From: a virus
Strand: one strand, 5' to 3'
Length of the DNA: 58,221 nucleotides
Virus record (IMG/VR): IMGVR_UViG_3300048591_001185
Location: 1 to 58,221 of that record
Made by a program: the position numbers and the translations under genes. Below, piece after piece: positions 29,176-48,968 of the stretch; within the stretch, counting starts at the first letter, position 1; every line of letters begins with the position of its first letter. The notes under the pieces are model-generated. The model was not told the DNA's origin. It ran no database searches and was given only the letters and a program-made list of their open reading frames with translations.

Positions 29176-29583
29176 CATAAGGAATTGACAAAATGGAAAC
29201 AGTTCAAATTAAAAAATTATTAAAAGTTGGAAAAAAATATCAAGCTGATTCTGAGTCACCAATAGATTCTTTAAAATTAGAAAAAATTGATTTTGAAGTT
29301 CTGGCAAAAAAGGGCGATGATATTTTTGTTTTTGCATATGGACAAAGTCATAATTTGGAAACAAAAATCATAGAAATATTAAGAGAAAAGAAATATACTG
29401 CAAGAGAATTGGCTGAAGGGATACATCTTGAAGTTTTTGATAATGACCCAAATGATATAGCAGAGTTCATAGATGATTCCATTTCTGTTTTAACAATTGA
29501 AGATAATAAGCTGAAAACTTGTGTAGGATATGAAATAAAAAATATTGTAGAAAACAACATAAGGAATTGACAAAATGGAAACA
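29176..29583 (+). repeat. 26-bp perfect direct repeat of a translation-start region
   Basis: The same 26 bases, with CATAAGGAATTGACAAAATG at the 5' side and GAAACA at the 3' side, occur at 29176-29201 and 29558-29583. Each includes ribosome site, ATG and the first two following codons. The first drives the 29193 gene, the second only a 13-codon ORF. This looks like a recombination or deletion scar. Confidence 0.85.
29193..29570 (+). CDS. Unknown small acidic protein
   Basis: 125 aa. IIEILREKKYTARELAEGI resembles a winged-helix-like segment, but the rest (FEVLAKKGDDIFVFAYGQ, DDSISVLTIEDNKLKT) gives no family. Its stop codon lies inside the duplicated leader at 29558-29583. Confidence 0.55.
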   Translation: METVQIKKLLKVGKKYQADSESPIDSLKLEKIDFEVLAKKGDDIFVFAYGQSHNLETKIIEILREKKYTARELAEGIHLEVFDNDPNDIAEFIDDSISVLTIEDNKLKTCVGYEIKNIVENNIRN

Positions 29584-29616
29584 AATCTATTTTTAACTTT
29601 GATAGTCAATAAATAA
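29575..29616 (+). pseudogene. 13-codon ORF behind a duplicated leader, likely gene remnant
   Basis: METNLFLTLIVNK, started by the second copy of the 26-bp leader, ends directly where the first ribozyme-like RNA begins. It could be the truncated start of a deleted gene or a short leader peptide. Confidence 0.35.
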
Positions 29617-29686
29617 TTGATATCTGTAACTGATGAAGCATAATAAGCAGAAAATGCCCACTTTGGTGGGCATTCTTACAGTTCAA
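29617..29686 (+). ncRNA. Type I hammerhead ribozyme-like RNA, copy 1
   Basis: All core elements are present in order. Outer stem I TTGA/TCAA (29617-29620/29683-29686), internal loop TAT/T, inner stem I CTGTAA/TTACAG (29624-29629/29676-29681). Core CTGATGA (29630-29636). Stem II GC(A)T/AGC with loop AATA. Core GAA (29650-29652). Stem III of 9 bp (29653-29661/29666-29674) with loop TTTG, and C17 at 29675. Predicted cleavage lies between 29675 and 29676, leaving 45 bases ahead of the ATG at 29721. Weak point: positions 10.1/11.1 are A/A (29637/29649), normally a pair. The ends open at stem I, which makes it type I. Confidence 0.82.
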
Positions 29687-29720
29687 ATAAATAATATCAA
29701 TAAACATAAGGAATACCAAA

Positions 29721-31085
29721 ATGAATTATGACACAAATAACCAAAAATTATTTTTAACAGCAAAAGTTTTATCATTGAAACTTGTTGAAGATAAACATTC
29801 ACCAACTGGCAAACATGATTTATTTGCTAAAGCAAAACTCAAAATAGGCAATGGTGAATTGTATTATGATGCTTTGATTAGTAAAGTATCAAAATCAATT
29901 TTTCTTTATAATAGTGTTCCTGAATTTCAAAATGAACAAGAATATATTGATTCAGAAAAGAAAAAAGTAATTGAAAATATTTTTAATTCAAAAAACACTT
30001 TTGTAATTGACCCTGAAACAGTTATGGAAGATATTGAAGAAAAATTTAATCATCAACTTGGTCAAATTAATGGAATGGTAAAATATTTGATGGTTGAATC
30101 AATTGAATTATTCACTCTTATTAAAAATAATGAAGAATTAGGAATAAAGACAGTTATTGATTTTACTGAATTAAAAGAATTATTTCTTGCTGCTTCAAAA
30201 GAAAATAGTGAGAAAAAAAGAGAATTAAAAATTGAAGCCAGAAAAAAATATTATGAAGCTGATGAGTTGGTTATTAATTTGGAAAAGATTAAAGCAGGAT
30301 TGGTCAAAGGAATAACAGCTGAATTGAATTATGATAATTCTGCTGAATATGCTTCTGCTAAAGGTACTGATGATATAATTATAACATTCCATTTTGAATA
30401 TGAAAAAGATGATACTACAATTGAATCAGATTCAATTGTAGCTAAAGTTGAACCTATTTATAACAGAAGTGCTTGGTCAAATAGACAGATAGGGACTGCT
30501 ATTAAATTAAGAGAAGGTTATGACCATGTGGCTAACTATAAAAAAATAGATAGCTTGGTCAAAAAAGTAAATGAAAAATATGAAATATTTATGGCAAAAG
30601 CTGAAATGGAAATAAGCAAAAAAAGTAAAGAAATAAGTGAAGAAAGATGGTTTGAAGAAAATTTTGATTACCCTGTAATTATCAAGAAAGAAACAAAATA
30701 TAATGTTTATGGTGGTTCAAGAAGTAGAAATAACAATAAATATGAAGTAAAATCATATTCACTTATACATAGTGTTGGAACAGAAACCACCACTGCATTT
30801 GGTAATGTATATGAATTAGGTTATGGAATCAAATTTCATTTTGATACTGAAAAATTAACTGATAAATCAAAATTTATTATATCTGAATTTACAGCTGAGT
30901 TTAGTGGAAAATTAGAAAGTGAAAAAGTATTTATTCAGTTTCTATATTCAACTGGTGAATACTATAAATCTGGAATGAATTTATCCAGTTTTAAATTTAC
31001 AAAAAATCAGTTTATGGATGCAATGAAAAAATTTATTGAATATTTCAACCCTTGTGCATTAGATGGTGTTTATTCATCTAAATAA
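29721..31085 (+). CDS. Unknown 454-aa protein
   Basis: Start follows CATAAGGAATACCAAAATG. Mixed fold: an N-terminal part (LFLTAKVLSLKLVEDKHS), a long charged helical middle (about 150-200 and 270-315), and a strand-rich C-terminus (GIKFHFDTEKL, FTAEFSGKLESEKVFIQFL). No motif recognised. It is the gene directly downstream of the first hammerhead-like RNA, so its mRNA may be processed 45 bases before the start. Confidence 0.6.
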   Translation: MNYDTNNQKLFLTAKVLSLKLVEDKHSPTGKHDLFAKAKLKIGNGELYYDALISKVSKSIFLYNSVPEFQNEQEYIDSEKKKVIENIFNSKNTFVIDPETVMEDIEEKFNHQLGQINGMVKYLMVESIELFTLIKNNEELGIKTVIDFTELKELFLAASKENSEKKRELKIEARKKYYEADELVINLEKIKAGLVKGITAELNYDNSAEYASAKGTDDIIITFHFEYEKDDTTIESDSIVAKVEPIYNRSAWSNRQIGTAIKLREGYDHVANYKKIDSLVKKVNEKYEIFMAKAEMEISKKSKEISEERWFEENFDYPVIIKKETKYNVYGGSRSRNNNKYEVKSYSLIHSVGTETTTAFGNVYELGYGIKFHFDTEKLTDKSKFIISEFTAEFSGKLESEKVFIQFLYSTGEYYKSGMNLSSFKFTKNQFMDAMKKFIEYFNPCALDGVYSSK

Positions 31086-31115
31086 TTTTTATACAAAAAA
31101 ATAAGGAATACTAAA

Positions 31116-31343
31116 ATGATGACTTTTAAAATAACAGATTATTTTGACCCATATGGTGATGGTAAATCAGTGAAGAAAAAATATTCTTCAAAATATTTTC
31201 ACTCTGAAACATTGAGTGAAGAACAGGTCAAAAATAGAATCCATAACTATAATGATAGAATGGATTATTATGGTAAGGTTGATGTGAAATTTTCCAATTA
31301 TAAAATAATAGGAAAACTTTTTGATAGAAGTTATATAAAATAA
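31116..31343 (+). CDS. Small unknown protein
   Basis: 75 aa, basic and aromatic-rich (DYFDPYGDGKSVKKKYSSKY, RIHNYNDRMDYYGKVDVKF). The start has the ATAAGGAATACTAAAATG leader. No family recognised. Confidence 0.5.
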   Translation: MMTFKITDYFDPYGDGKSVKKKYSSKYFHSETLSEEQVKNRIHNYNDRMDYYGKVDVKFSNYKIIGKLFDRSYIK

Positions 31344-31371
31344 TTTTAAAAAAAACATAAGGAATACCAAA

Positions 31372-32427
31372 ATGAAAAAGTTAAATTTAAACCAAATTGA
31401 AGATGCATCTGTAATAGAAATAGTAGAAGATATTACACCAAAAGAACTGAACAAACAGTTAGTTGAATTAGGATTATGGAAGCCAGGCTGCCAATTTCTT
31501 TCTAAAGATGATAAACTGAAACTGATGACTTCTTCAAAGTCAACTCAAAATAGGATTTATGTAAAAGTAAAAAATACAATTGAAAGAATTAGAAAAAATG
31601 CTGGTGATAGGGAATATAAATATTCATTTTCTGAAAAGTCTGTCACCAATGGTGTTAATGTAGTGGGAGATGTTGACCAATTGAAAAATTTTATGACACC
31701 TGTTTATGAGGACAAGGTTTATTTTAGCAATGGAACTGATATGGTTGAAGCACCAAAGCACAAAGCAATAGTGACTAAAGATGGCAAGATTGTAAGTGTG
31801 ATGAACCAAGGATATAAACTTATAAGGAATGAAGATGTTGTTATGCCATTGTTGGAAAAATTGGACAAATTGGACAGTAAGTGGTACATTGATGGAAGTC
31901 ATTCATTTTTAACCAATACTAAGATGAGAATGCAGGTGACTTTCCCTGAATTAAGATTTAATGATGGTAAGTCTGATATAGCTATGAGTTTGTATTTGAC
32001 CAATAGTTATGATGGTAGTAGTTCAGTAAATGTTAAGTGGGGAGCAATTAGGTCAATATGTAGTAATGGAATGGTTTTTGGGAATATGTTTAATGATTTT
32101 TATCACAGACATTCTTCTTTCTTTGTAGCAGATAGCTTGCTTGAGCAGCTTGAAGACACTTTCAAACTGATTCCAGCTATTAATGAAAAAGTGAAATTGT
32201 TGGATGCTTCTAAATTTAGGGTAAGTGATTATGTGATGGAAGAAATTTCAGACACAATAGGTAAAAAAGCACTTGCTTATGTTGAGCAAGAAAATGGTGA
32301 AAATAAAGACCAAATAAAAACACAGTGGGATTTGCTTAATGTTCTTACATACTATGTTTCTCATTATGTAAATTATAAGACAAGAGCCCATTATCAGCAA
32401 AGAATAAGTAATATGTTTGAAATGTAA
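31372..32427 (+). CDS. DUF932-like phage/plasmid protein
   Basis: 351 aa. From about residue 110 the sequence matches the DUF932 pattern: KAIVTKDGKIVSVMNQGYK, IDGSHSFLTNTKMRMQVTF, AMSLYLTNSYDGSSSVNVKWG, AIRSICSNGMVFGNM. Proteins of this family are common in phages and plasmids; their function is not settled. Residues about 20-75 are a separate module (LVELGLWKPGCQFLSKDDKL) that recurs at the C-terminus of the 33532 gene product. It is followed by a strong terminator. Confidence 0.78.
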   Translation: MKKLNLNQIEDASVIEIVEDITPKELNKQLVELGLWKPGCQFLSKDDKLKLMTSSKSTQNRIYVKVKNTIERIRKNAGDREYKYSFSEKSVTNGVNVVGDVDQLKNFMTPVYEDKVYFSNGTDMVEAPKHKAIVTKDGKIVSVMNQGYKLIRNEDVVMPLLEKLDKLDSKWYIDGSHSFLTNTKMRMQVTFPELRFNDGKSDIAMSLYLTNSYDGSSSVNVKWGAIRSICSNGMVFGNMFNDFYHRHSSFFVADSLLEQLEDTFKLIPAINEKVKLLDASKFRVSDYVMEEISDTIGKKALAYVEQENGENKDQIKTQWDLLNVLTYYVSHYVNYKTRAHYQQRISNMFEM

Positions 32428-32431
32428 TTTT

Positions 32432-32454
32432 AAGGCACAGAGATGTGCCTTTTT
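32432..32454 (+). terminator. Rho-independent terminator
   Basis: Perfect 8-bp stem AAGGCACA (32432-32439) / TGTGCCTT (32444-32451), tetraloop GAGA and a T-run to 32454, directly after the DUF932 stop. Confidence 0.9.
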
Positions 32455-32465
32455 ATTTCACTCAC

Positions 32466-32509
32466 AGATTATATCAAAAAAGTAATTCAAAGCCAAAATT
32501 CAGCACTTA
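32466..32509 (+). promoter_or_regulatory. 44-nt conserved element, copy A
   Basis: Begins 12 bases after a terminator and lies about 80 bases before the next start codon. AGATTATATCAAAAAA opens it and CAGCACTTA closes it. It is identical to copy B (34509-34552) at 37 of 44 positions with no gap. The place behind a terminator argues for a promoter or operator. Confidence 0.5.
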
Positions 32510-32550
32510 GCTGTGAAAATAAACTAAAAATAATAATAAGGAATAGTAAG

Positions 32551-32718
32551 ATGGATGCAATAAGAATATTGAATGGAGAAAGAAAATGGAGTTATTCAAT
32601 TATTGCCAGCAGGGCTGGTATATCAAAACCTAAATTGAAAAAATATATTAATGGTGAATTAGGTGGTGTTGAGAAATCACAAGTGACAAGAAAATTAAAT
32701 TCATTAATTAAAAATTGA
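32551..32718 (+). CDS. Small helix-turn-helix protein
   Basis: 55 aa from ATG 32551, preceded by ATAATAAGGAATAGTAAG. The frame is open further upstream, but that part crosses the terminator and 44-nt element. SYSIIASRAGISKPKLKKYI has the helix-turn-helix spacing (ASRAGIS.. turn) of small Cro/Xre-like or resolvase-type DNA binders. A regulator acting on one of the nearby promoter-like elements is possible (inference). Its end overlaps the start of the second ribozyme-like RNA. Confidence 0.6.
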   Translation: MDAIRILNGERKWSYSIIASRAGISKPKLKKYINGELGGVEKSQVTRKLNSLIKN

Positions 32719-32782
32719 TATCTGTAACTGATGAAGCTAATAAGCAGAAAGTGCTCACCCAGTGAGCATTCTTACAGTTCAA
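32715..32782 (+). ncRNA. Type I hammerhead ribozyme-like RNA, copy 2
   Basis: Same architecture as copy 1. Outer stem I TTGA/TCAA (32715-32718/32779-32782), loop TAT/T, inner stem CTGTAA/TTACAG (32722-32727/32772-32777). Core CTGATGA (32728-32734). Stem II GCT/AGC with loop AATA. Core GAA (32747-32749). Stem III of 9 bp (32750-32758/32762-32770) with loop CCA, C17 at 32771. Stem III differs from copy 1 by a covarying C-G to T-A pair and by A-T to G-T, so pairing, not sequence, is kept. Predicted cleavage 32771/32772, 44 bases before the ATG at 32816. Confidence 0.82.
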
Positions 32783-32815: not shown

Positions 32816-32941
32816 ATGAAAAATCAATTCAAACTTGCTTCAGTATTTTATTTTAGGGTTTCTGAAGATAGAAGGAAAGTGAAAAATATTTTCCTGCACA
32901 TAGCATCACTTTTTAGAATAGTAAAAGGTGGTGTGATATGA
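32816..32941 (+). CDS. Small basic protein ahead of the sigma-like gene
   Basis: 41 aa, MKNQFKLASVFYFRVSEDRR onward, rich in K/R. Preceded by CATAAGGAACAAAACAGATG. It overlaps the following gene by four bases (ATGA), so it may couple or control translation of the sigma-like factor. It is the first gene behind the second hammerhead-like RNA. Confidence 0.5.
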   Translation: MKNQFKLASVFYFRVSEDRRKVKNIFLHIASLFRIVKGGVI

Positions 32942-33480
32942 TAGATTATGAAATGGTTGATGAAGCCAAAACTGACCCAGCAAAATTATTAAAGATTTAT
33001 AATCAGGTATTTTATGATGGTAAAAAACCAAAATTAAGGATGTGGCTAATTAAAAAAGGAATATCATATTATGAGTTAGATGATGTTGAGACTGAGATGA
33101 AGTTATCTTTTTTAGCAGGTGTTAAAAAGTATGAACATGATAAGATAGAATTTGAAAAATATATTTGGACAAGATTTTCTCATACACTTTTAAATTATTA
33201 TCAAAGCAAAAAATTAAAGAAAAATTCAATCATTCCATTTGGGGATATAAGTGAAGAAGTTGTATTCAATATAGGTTGTTTACCAGAGAAAAGATGTCAA
33301 GATGATTTTGAATATCTGTTTACTCTTATGACCAGATATGAAGCAACCATATGTAGATTGATATATTACAATGGTTGGGAAAAACAGACAATAATAAATC
33401 ATCTTGAAGTATCATCAAATTTCTATGATAAGTGTTTGGTGAATATAAGAAAAATAATCAGCAAGTACATGACTGATTGA
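32938..33480 (+). CDS. Sigma-70-like transcription factor (T4 gp55-like role)
   Basis: 180 aa. Residues 45-95 (YELDDVETEMKLSFLAGVKK, YIWTRFSHTLLNYYQSKKLK) follow the region 2 pattern, with an acidic helix, 'a..kY', then an aromatic-basic helix that would melt the -10. Residues 125-176 (YEATICRLIYYNGWEKQTII, then NHLEVSS, YDKCLVNIRKII) look like a region 4 helix-turn-helix. A short sigma with only these regions is typical of phage late factors. It would redirect host RNA polymerase; the candidate target is TTGTATATTAA (inference). Alternative: an unrelated helical DNA-binding protein. Confidence 0.68.
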   Translation: MIDYEMVDEAKTDPAKLLKIYNQVFYDGKKPKLRMWLIKKGISYYELDDVETEMKLSFLAGVKKYEHDKIEFEKYIWTRFSHTLLNYYQSKKLKKNSIIPFGDISEEVVFNIGCLPEKRCQDDFEYLFTLMTRYEATICRLIYYNGWEKQTIINHLEVSSNFYDKCLVNIRKIISKYMTD

Positions 33481-33531: not shown

Positions 33532-34401
33532 ATGGAAATAGGAATAAGAAAAGTTAACCAAAATTATGTTTTTATTTTTTTGGATGCAAAGAAAAAAGAA
33601 GTAAATGAATTTGCTTCAGAACTAAGAAATATTGATGGATTTTATTATAATGGTTTTTTTATTGATAAAAGAAATGAGTATGAGATAGGTTTTAAAATTG
33701 TAAATGAAGGTTATTTACATATAATGGATGAATTATCAAATAATAAAATAATAATAAACAAAAAAGAAATGGAGTGTATCATGGCAACAAAACAGGCACC
33801 ATACAAGTTATGGACATTGAAAGCATTAAAAAATGAACTCAAGCAAAGAGAAATTGATTTTACTGAACTTGAAGATTCAAATGACAAAGCAGCATTGGTT
33901 GCATTATTGCAAGCTGATGATAATGAACCAAATAAAGTAATACCAACTGATGATGAAATTGAAGATTTAGAATCTGAAGATGAATTGGATGATGAAGAAT
34001 CTGAAGATGAAGAACTTGAAGATGAATTGGATGATGAAGAATCTGATGATTTAGAATCTGATGATTTAGAATCTGATGATGAAGCAAAAGCACCAGCTAA
34101 AAAAGCACCAGCTAAAAAAGCACCACCAAAGAAAGATGAGCCTGCAAAACTTAAAAAGAAAGCAGCAAGTAAGAAGGATAAAGGAACTTCATCAATTGAA
34201 TTGAATACCATGCTTAGAGAAAAAAATCTATGGAGACCAGGCTGTCAGTTTTTAAGTAAGGTTGAGAAGCAGGAATTGTTGGATGTTAACAAAAATGAAA
34301 GACAAAAAATATATGACATGCTTGATAAGAAATTTACCAAACTAAAAAAGAAAATATCAGAAACGAATAAAGAAACAAATAAAGCTAAAAAAGAAGCATA
34401 A
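33532..34401 (+). CDS. SAP-like, Lys/Ala-rich DNA-binding protein with acidic repeats
   Basis: 289 aa. An N-terminal domain (1-83) of unknown type. A SAP-like helix-extension-helix follows (YKLWTLKALKNELKQREIDF, about 88-125). Next comes an acidic repeat tract (about 140-183, ELDDEESEDEELEDELDD-like), then a histone H1-like basic tract (APAKKAPAKKAPPKK) and a C-terminal module LREKNLWRPGCQFLSKVEK shared with the DUF932 protein. A second start at ATG 33781, with GGAG 8 bases upstream, would give a 206-aa form without the N-terminal domain. Probably a nucleoid-like or genome-condensing protein (inference). Confidence 0.65.
   Translation: MEIGIRKVNQNYVFIFLDAKKKEVNEFASELRNIDGFYYNGFFIDKRNEYEIGFKIVNEGYLHIMDELSNNKIIINKKEMECIMATKQAPYKLWTLKALKNELKQREIDFTELEDSNDKAALVALLQADDNEPNKVIPTDDEIEDLESEDELDDEESEDEELEDELDDEESDDLESDDLESDDEAKAPAKKAPAKKAPPKKDEPAKLKKKAASKKDKGTSSIELNTMLREKNLWRPGCQFLSKVEKQELLDVNKNERQKIYDMLDKKFTKLKKKISETNKETNKAKKEA
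33964..34080 (+). repeat. In-frame acidic coding repeats
   Basis: A 30-bp unit beginning TGAAGATGAATTGG recurs at 33975-34004 and 34017-34046. GATTTAGAATCTGAT is tandemly repeated (34048 and 34063) and also appears once upstream at 33964 (last base differs). They encode Glu/Asp/Ser runs and probably arose by slippage. Confidence 0.8.
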
Positions 34402-34410
34402 TATGATATT

Positions 34411-34441
34411 TGCCCTTGGTGAAAATCAAGGGCATTTTTTT
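34411..34441 (+). terminator. Rho-independent terminator
   Basis: 8-bp stem TGCCCTTG (34411-34418) / CAAGGGCA (34427-34434), an 8-base loop and a seven-T run, directly after the 33532 gene. Confidence 0.88.
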
Positions 34442-47697: not shown

Positions 47698-47991
47698 ATG
47701 GCAGTTTACATATTACATTTTGAAAAAAAATTTTATCACACCCAACATTATATAGGTTGGACAAAAGGCAATTCAATAGAAGCTGTGCAAAAAAGATTGA
47801 AGACACATTTGGCTGGTAAAGGTAGCAAGATAGTAAGAAGTGTTGTTGCTTCAGGTATAAAGGTTGAAGTGGCAACAATTTTTATTAATGGTGATAGAAA
47901 GTTGGAAAGAAAATTGAAAGATAAAAAGAATGCTAAACAATTTTGTAGTATTTGCAATGATTTTTTAATAGACTATGGAGCAGAAACGTGA
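47698..47991 (+). CDS. Small stand-alone GIY-YIG nuclease-domain protein
   Basis: 97 aa. [20 protein letters not shown] is the GIY-YIG signature (YIL...HYIGWT), followed by the helix with Arg (VQKRLKTHL) and a Glu-containing segment ([13 protein letters not shown]). This compact type occurs widely in bacteria and phages and has no separate DNA-binding domain, so it is more likely a repair nuclease than a homing enzyme. No clear ribosome site; the start directly follows the terminator's T-run. Confidence 0.72.
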
Positions 47992-48968
47992 AAGAAATAT
48001 CAACCAAAAGCAAGTTGGCAGCAGCAATATCTCAAATTGAAAAATTATATGGTAAGGGTTCATTGATTGAATATGGCAAGGGTACAAGTCTTGATATAAA
48101 AGGAATATCAACTGGTTCATTCCTTATCAATGATATAAGTGGTATTGGTGGCATACCTATGGGTAGAATCACTGAAATATATGGCCCAGAATCAAGTGGC
48201 AAGACAACAATGTGTTTACATATTATAGCTGAAGCACAGAAGATGGGAATGAGAGCTGCATTTATAGATGCTGAGCATGCTCTTGACCCAGTTTATGCCA
48301 GGAATATAGGTGTGAATATGGATACATTACTTTTAAGTCAGCCAGATTATGGTGAGCAAGCACTTGACATAGCAAGCAAATTAACTGAGACAGGTGAAGT
48401 TGGTTTAATAATAATTGATTCAGTTGCAGCATTAGTCCCAAAAGCAGAAATTGAAGGTGAGATTGGTGATGCACATATGGCATTGCAGGCAAGAATGATG
48501 AGTCAATCATTAAGAATGATGAATGGTGATATAAAAAAGACCAACACAGCAGTTGTTTTCATTAATCAATTGAGAAGTAAGATAGGTGTGATGTTTGGAA
48601 ATCCTGAGACAACAACAGGTGGCAATGCTTTAAAGTTTTATGCAAGTATGAGAATAGATATCAGAAGGATTGGTGCAATAAAAGAAGGTGAAGAAGTGGT
48701 TGGTAATATAACTAAAGTTAAGATTGCCAAAAGTAAAGTATCATCACCATTTAGAACATGTGAAATTGATATAAGGTATGCTGAAGGTATTGATTGTTAT
48801 TCAGAGTTGATTGAACTTGGTGTGAAGCATAATGTGCTGGAAAAAAGTGGTGCTTGGTATATAATCAATGATAAACATAAGTATCAAGGCAAAGAAAAAA
48901 TTAGACAGGCACTCAAGTCAAATGAAAAATTGTATATTTATTTGAGAAAAAAAATATTTGGTGAATAG
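47988..48968 (+). CDS. recA: RecA recombinase
   Basis: 326 aa, GTG start at 47988 overlapping the preceding stop, with GGAG 8 bases upstream. Forms filaments on single-stranded DNA and drives strand exchange. Walker A is GPESSGKT (66-73), then [19 protein letters not shown], Walker [14 protein letters not shown], loop L1 near [15 protein letters not shown], loop L2 near [15 protein letters not shown]. It is a true bacterial-type RecA rather than UvsX. Slightly short of E. coli RecA (353), lacking part of the C-terminal acidic tail. Confidence 0.96.

Follow-up and report, generated by a model that had tools for sequence, protein, structure and literature searches.

Two variant type I hammerhead motifs at gene junctions of a phage genome, candidate sites of mRNA segmentation

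Type I hammerheads are known from bacteria and (pro)phages, where clustered (pro)phage-associated copies cleave in vitro and, for one cluster, in E. coli (Perreault et al. 2011, PMC3088659). The same authors proposed that the clustered prophage hammerheads serve in mRNA processing. The 10.1/11.1 pair is the most conserved one besides A15.1-U16.1; U.U is the most active mismatch at this place, and a natural U10.1-U11.1 mismatch was reported as surprising (PMC3088659). A hammerhead variant of the haloviruses HF1 and HF2, HHphage, lies 13 nt 5' of a phage gene start, and an mRNA 5' end was mapped near its cleavage site (PMC3088659).

Here, we describe two type I hammerheads in a stretch of viral DNA of 58,221 nt (IMG/VR record IMGVR_UViG_3300048591_001185, positions 1 to 58,221; hereafter the window). 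They share with the bacterial and (pro)phage type I hammerheads the stem order I-II-III, open at stem I, the CUGANGA/GAA/A15.1-U16.1/H17 core, a short stem II of 2 bp and the presence of several copies flanking genes (PMC3088659). They differ by an A.A mismatch at 10.1/11.1, where the main text of that paper gives U.U as the sole mismatch, and by having no integrase neighbour among the genes examined. Like HHphage, they lie closely 5' of a phage gene start, but HHphage belongs to an archaeal virus and was linked by its authors to high salt, whereas the window has two copies and a spacing of 44-45 nt. We found no report of A.A or C.A at 10.1/11.1 in the literature searched, from which the alignment supplement of Perreault et al., PMC3334697 and PMC3048661 are excepted. 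The type I phage hammerhead is already known, while the subgroup with a mismatched pair, scattered among phages, is a variant that we did not find described in this literature.

Structure of the two copies

Copy 1 (29617-29686, + strand) was described in the initial annotation as a complete type I hammerhead, and each element named there is present where it was placed. An outer stem I helix (TTGA, 29617-29620, with TCAA, 29683-29686) is separated by an internal loop (TAT, 29621-29623, facing T, 29682) from stem I (CTGTAA, 29624-29629, with TTACAG, 29676-29681). The core comprises CTGATGA (29630-29636), GAA (29650-29652) and C17 (29675), and is complete save for the already noted mismatch between A10.1 (29637) and A11.1 (29649). 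These two residues flank the GC dinucleotides of stem II (29638-29639 and 29647-29648), which enclose a loop at 29640-29646. Stem III is a hairpin of 9 bp (29653-29661 with 29666-29674) and has no terminator-like score on the + strand. The hammerhead consensus predicts cleavage after C17, between 29675 and 29676, which is indeed 45 nt 5' of the ATG at 29721, as first proposed. A leader with a Shine-Dalgarno-like motif, AAGGAA, separates the copy from this ATG (29687-29720, + strand). On the other side, the 13-codon ORF listed before copy 1 was found at 29575-29616 (+ strand), its stop codon (29614-29616) abutting the outer stem I. The folding check suggested at the time agrees with these assignments: among the folds of 29610-29695, the hammerhead has the lowest energy (-20.2 kcal/mol, z -3.1).

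Self-comparison of the window revealed a second copy that was absent from the initial annotation and is also at a gene junction (copy 2, 32715-32782, + strand; A10.1/A11.1 at 32735/32746; predicted cleavage at 32771/32772). The copies are 86% identical over about 100 bases spanning the hammerhead, the leader and the ribosome-binding motif. They do not differ in the core or in stem I. The differences are in stem III (where an A-U pair becomes G-U and a C-G pair is replaced by U-A, the latter compensatory), in its loop and in one base of loop II. Both have the UAU internal loop and the UAAUAA loop II, which could form a UAU/AUA pairing, as judged from the window copies alone. Both contain CUGANGA, GAA, A15.1-U16.1, a non-G residue 17 and a three-way junction, with the 5' and 3' ends in stem I as in the type I architecture, and in both the 10.1/11.1 pair closing stem II is A.A instead of Watson-Crick. 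The 58-kb window holds no type II, type III or further type I hammerheads. Two mutually homologous copies are more than expected by chance, because 60 first-order Markov sequences of window length contained no complete type I motif on either strand. The small RNA at each junction probably self-cleaves.

The copies were also identified by covariance models built from the hammerheads of other phages. A small model of five hammerheads from other phage contigs, with the window excluded, found in the 58-kb window the two copies alone (35.3 and 28.6 bits, E 2.3e-6 and 1.2e-4). With a model of 34 sequences they score 46.4 and 40.7 bits (E about 1e-10 and 5e-9), and no other match exceeds 17.1; false positives, i.e., bacterial sequences with the core pattern, score 18-25 bits, with a maximum of 25. 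We used a small clean set for the five-hammerhead model because initial MAFFT alignments put GAA or stem III in the wrong place where stem lengths differed. In the alignment, 98% of the cells are paired, against 31-38% in slid-pairing controls, and 14 of the 16 pairs show changes on both sides; since the alignment was partly collected via a structure filter, this covariation is somewhat inflated and is to be read alongside the shuffle and bacterial-genome controls. The three helices are backed by covariation, and the window copies fit the independent model. The assignment of a type I hammerhead to a phage 5' leader is supported by the compensatory change in the second copy of the genome, by about 30 other hammerheads on phage contigs, which covary strongly, and by an independent covariance model that matches these two places alone.

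The expectation of an Rfam match was not borne out. Rfam 15 gave no match at gathering scores in the whole window, and neither copy reaches the cut-offs of RF00163, RF02275 or RF03152: in a permissive search, the best hammerhead score, that of copy 1 with RF02275 (Hammerhead_HH9), was 18.6 bits versus a cut-off of 52. A RAGATH-12 match on the minus strand (25 bits versus 75) was rejected as chance. At gathering thresholds, Rfam also misses the phage-contig hammerheads found here, including the canonical G-C ones, such as L129:265-320 (30 bits versus 34 for RF00163). Since a canonical phage hammerhead falls below the cut-off too, the miss reflects model coverage and says little about the copies; counts of phage hammerheads based on Rfam are therefore too low. 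The window copies share the architecture of RF00163 (Hammerhead_1) and RF02275 at sub-threshold scores. The variant class RF03152 (RAGATH-1-hammerhead) weakly matches the canonical L129 copy (30.1 bits versus 56.3) and matches neither window copy in the gathering or the permissive searches.

Gene junctions and proposed mRNA segmentation

The predicted cut is 24-86 nt (median 33, typically 24-65) 5' of an ATG-started frame in 23 distinct cases, and the upstream stop codon is often at most 13 nt from stem I or within it. The two window cuts would fall 45 nt (copy 1) and 44 nt (copy 2) 5' of an ATG, and the outer stem I of copy 2 contains the stop codon of ORF 32443-32718 (32716-32718, + strand). 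Some A.A members (L031, L062, L072, L114) have no obvious start codon just 3'. In four contigs (L013, L032, L091, L102), a canonical or U.U hammerhead is found 39-57 nt 5' of a gene of about 350 aa, which we take to be AAA+ ATPase-like from our reading of a GGTGVGKS motif rather than from a family search; three of the four have a second hammerhead one gene upstream.

The long ORFs near both copies are all on the + strand. The segment between the predicted cleavage sites (29676-32771, 3.1 kb) has four frames, at 29721, 31116, 31372 and 32443. The first (29721-31085, + strand) encodes a 454-aa protein of unknown family, with no match in PHROGs, Pfam or phages, and the third (31372-32427, + strand) a DUF932 protein (Pfam PF06067, E 1.8e-15). 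Copy 2 is followed by a 41-aa ORF (32816-32941, + strand), whose ATG is 44 nt past the predicted cleavage, and by an ORF overlapping it by ATGA (32938-33480, + strand) with a weak sigma-factor match (phrog_1740, E 4e-4). Queries with the 29721 gene and the primase found no protein relatives of this phage in IMG/VR, and the replication and DUF932 proteins have distant relatives alone in the phage collection. The RecA-like protein (47988-48968) has up to 60% identity to RecA of phage-collection records, while the primase/helicase matches, at 20-28%, are far more distant. Several gene starts, some with a hammerhead and some without, have a leader motif like CATAAGGAAT(TGA/ACC)CAAAATG (29178-29201, 29560-29583, 29700-29723, 31340-31374, 31098-31118), and an exact duplicate of 24 bases that include the start of ATGGAAACA lies 5' of the 13-codon ORF.

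Given the recurrent position at junctions, separation of the upstream from the downstream mRNA by the predicted cleavage is the most likely role. Our main reading, to which we give a probability of roughly 70%, is that the two A10.1/A11.1-variant type I hammerheads self-cleave and cut a polycistronic phage mRNA at the junctions. Each would fold on transcription and then cut after C17. Hammerhead cleavage leaves a 2',3'-cyclic phosphate at the end of the upstream RNA and a 5'-OH at the start of the downstream RNA. The upstream mRNA would thus gain a fixed 3' terminus, formed by the stem III hairpin and a 2',3'-cyclic phosphate, while transcription continues, and the downstream mRNA would gain a short 5'-OH leader of 44-45 nt with its own ribosome-binding site; the 3' product of copy 1 would begin UUACAGUUCAAA. 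Between them, the two cuts would free a four-gene RNA (29676-32771, about 3.1 kb). In the most economical view, which Perreault et al. put forward for clusters in prophages (PMC3088659), a long transcript could in this way be divided without promoters or terminators, with the likely benefit that adjoining gene blocks decay and get translated independently. We infer for this a single transcription unit; cleavage and its rate, the chemistry of the ends and the effect on expression are likewise predictions. If the reading is true, 5'-OH ends are expected at the predicted positions, which makes the segmentation idea directly testable. Two copies framing a four-gene block, and at least 15 distinct relatives, many of them at junctions, bear on the role of phage hammerheads, a question that dates back to at least 2011.

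Cleavage might in addition be regulated, with translation of the 13-codon ORF controlling the folding of copy 1, but we consider such a switch quite unlikely. A competing hairpin (29605-29621) overlaps the end of the ORF; when the ORF is untranslated, this hairpin and a second helix would hide a strand of stem I, and a ribosome at the stop codon (29614) would melt both helices, allowing cleavage, or would cover stem I while there. When copy 1 is folded with at least 20 upstream bases, the competing fold is better by about 3 kcal/mol and the probability of stem I is 0.06-0.13, in a secondary-structure model that leaves out tertiary contacts and co-transcriptional folding. Moreover, both copies and many hammerheads of other phages have a stop codon next to or within stem I. 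However, the competitor of copy 2 gains no more than 1.3 kcal/mol and draws on other upstream sequence, and the stop codons may be close simply because phage genes are compactly arranged, with small gaps as a rule. Translation control of copy 1 by the 13-codon ORF is possible, and that of copy 2 is weakly suggested.

The 10.1/11.1 mismatch in other phages

We scanned IMG/VR for patterns that specify nothing but the core and a short stem II having A10.1 and A11.1, and we called complete hammerheads those sites that also form stems I and III and an A15.1-U16.1 pair and whose residue 17 is not G. Of the 127 A.A-pattern sites, 21 qualify, whereas shuffling the flanks leaves 1.2 on average and never more than 5. 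Among the 21, L040 is probably a chance match, its loop being implausibly long. In a control scan with C10.1 and either A or C at 11.1, all complete hammerheads had A11.1 and none had C.C. The distinct elements with a stem I of at least 5 bp are 16 A.A (one differing from another at residue 17 alone), 8 C.A, 6 U.U and 6 G-C, counts that depend on the patterns scanned and are not frequencies. A10.1/A11.1 is found in at least 15 distinct phage hammerheads, and others have C.A or U.U. A stricter A.A pattern of 20 bases led to a hammerhead in 10 of 12 viral matches and in none of the 16 matches in bacterial genomes, which were used as a control and resemble ordinary coding sequence. Exact patterns from the window's stem I or loop II gave no further viral matches. 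Residue 17, left free in 31 distinct matches, is C in 27, A in 3 and G in 1, the single G17 match being chance-like. The U.U hammerheads (L032, L091, L101, L102, L117) all have A17, and the A.A and canonical ones nearly all C17. Mismatched and canonical elements occur together on some contigs: two G-C and one A.A inside 1 kb in L129, A.A and G-C in L131, and G-C, A.A and C.A in L189. In L129 (265-1202, one viral contig), two of the three type I hammerheads have an identical stem III sequence.

On this comparison, the A10.1/A11.1 mismatch is a recurrent variant and not decay, because at least 15 distinct phage hammerheads share it, some of them arrayed with canonical copies. As natural U.U hammerheads are already accepted, and the pair is strongly conserved but not strictly defining, we file the window copies as a variant. 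The conserved mismatch suggests that a pair held to be near-invariant is apparently replaceable. Judged from the known hammerhead fold, A.A could stack on G8.A13 and A9.G12, the sheared pairs in tandem. Cleavage may be slow because 10.1/11.1 is highly conserved and U.U is the most active mismatch (PMC3088659). A more tentative idea, unlikely as a whole, is that of a separate and widespread phage type I subclass in which an A11.1 mismatch (A.A, C.A) extends the tandem sheared G.A core and in which systematic stop-to-start mRNA cutting is gated by translation of the upstream frame.

The high conservation of 10.1/11.1 in known hammerheads (PMC3088659) might also indicate that the copies are relics, degenerate hammerheads inactivated by the mismatch. 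This is very improbable, as at least 15 distinct phage elements combine A.A with a core that is perfect in all other respects and occur among canonical copies, and the two window copies show a compensatory change in stem III. It is hardly credible that the copies are hairpin terminators or mRNA 3'-end stabilisers with an incidental or decayed hammerhead likeness: stem III is a strong, G+C-rich hairpin of 9 bp located 3' of a gene and scores terminator-like on the minus strand, but on the + strand it is not followed by a U tract, unlike the sites at 32432 and 34411, so that a G+C hairpin and then a U tract are found on the minus strand alone, and this leaves CUGAUGA/GAA, the stem I pairing and C17 unexplained in both copies and across phages. 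We reject both of these readings in view of the conserved core and C17, the recurrent A.A and the compensatory change in stem III.

The + strand has terminator-like hairpins with T tracts at 32432-32451 and 34411-34434. The former overlaps the first ATG of ORF 32443, which makes that start codon doubtful. Two ORFs include repeats: ORF 33532-34401 has a repeated acidic coding stretch, GATGAAGAATCTGAAGATGAA-like, at 33914-34090, and ORF 909-2093 has tandem 27-bp repeats at 975-1050 (CATTTAATATTTTTTCTGAAGATACTT on the minus strand).
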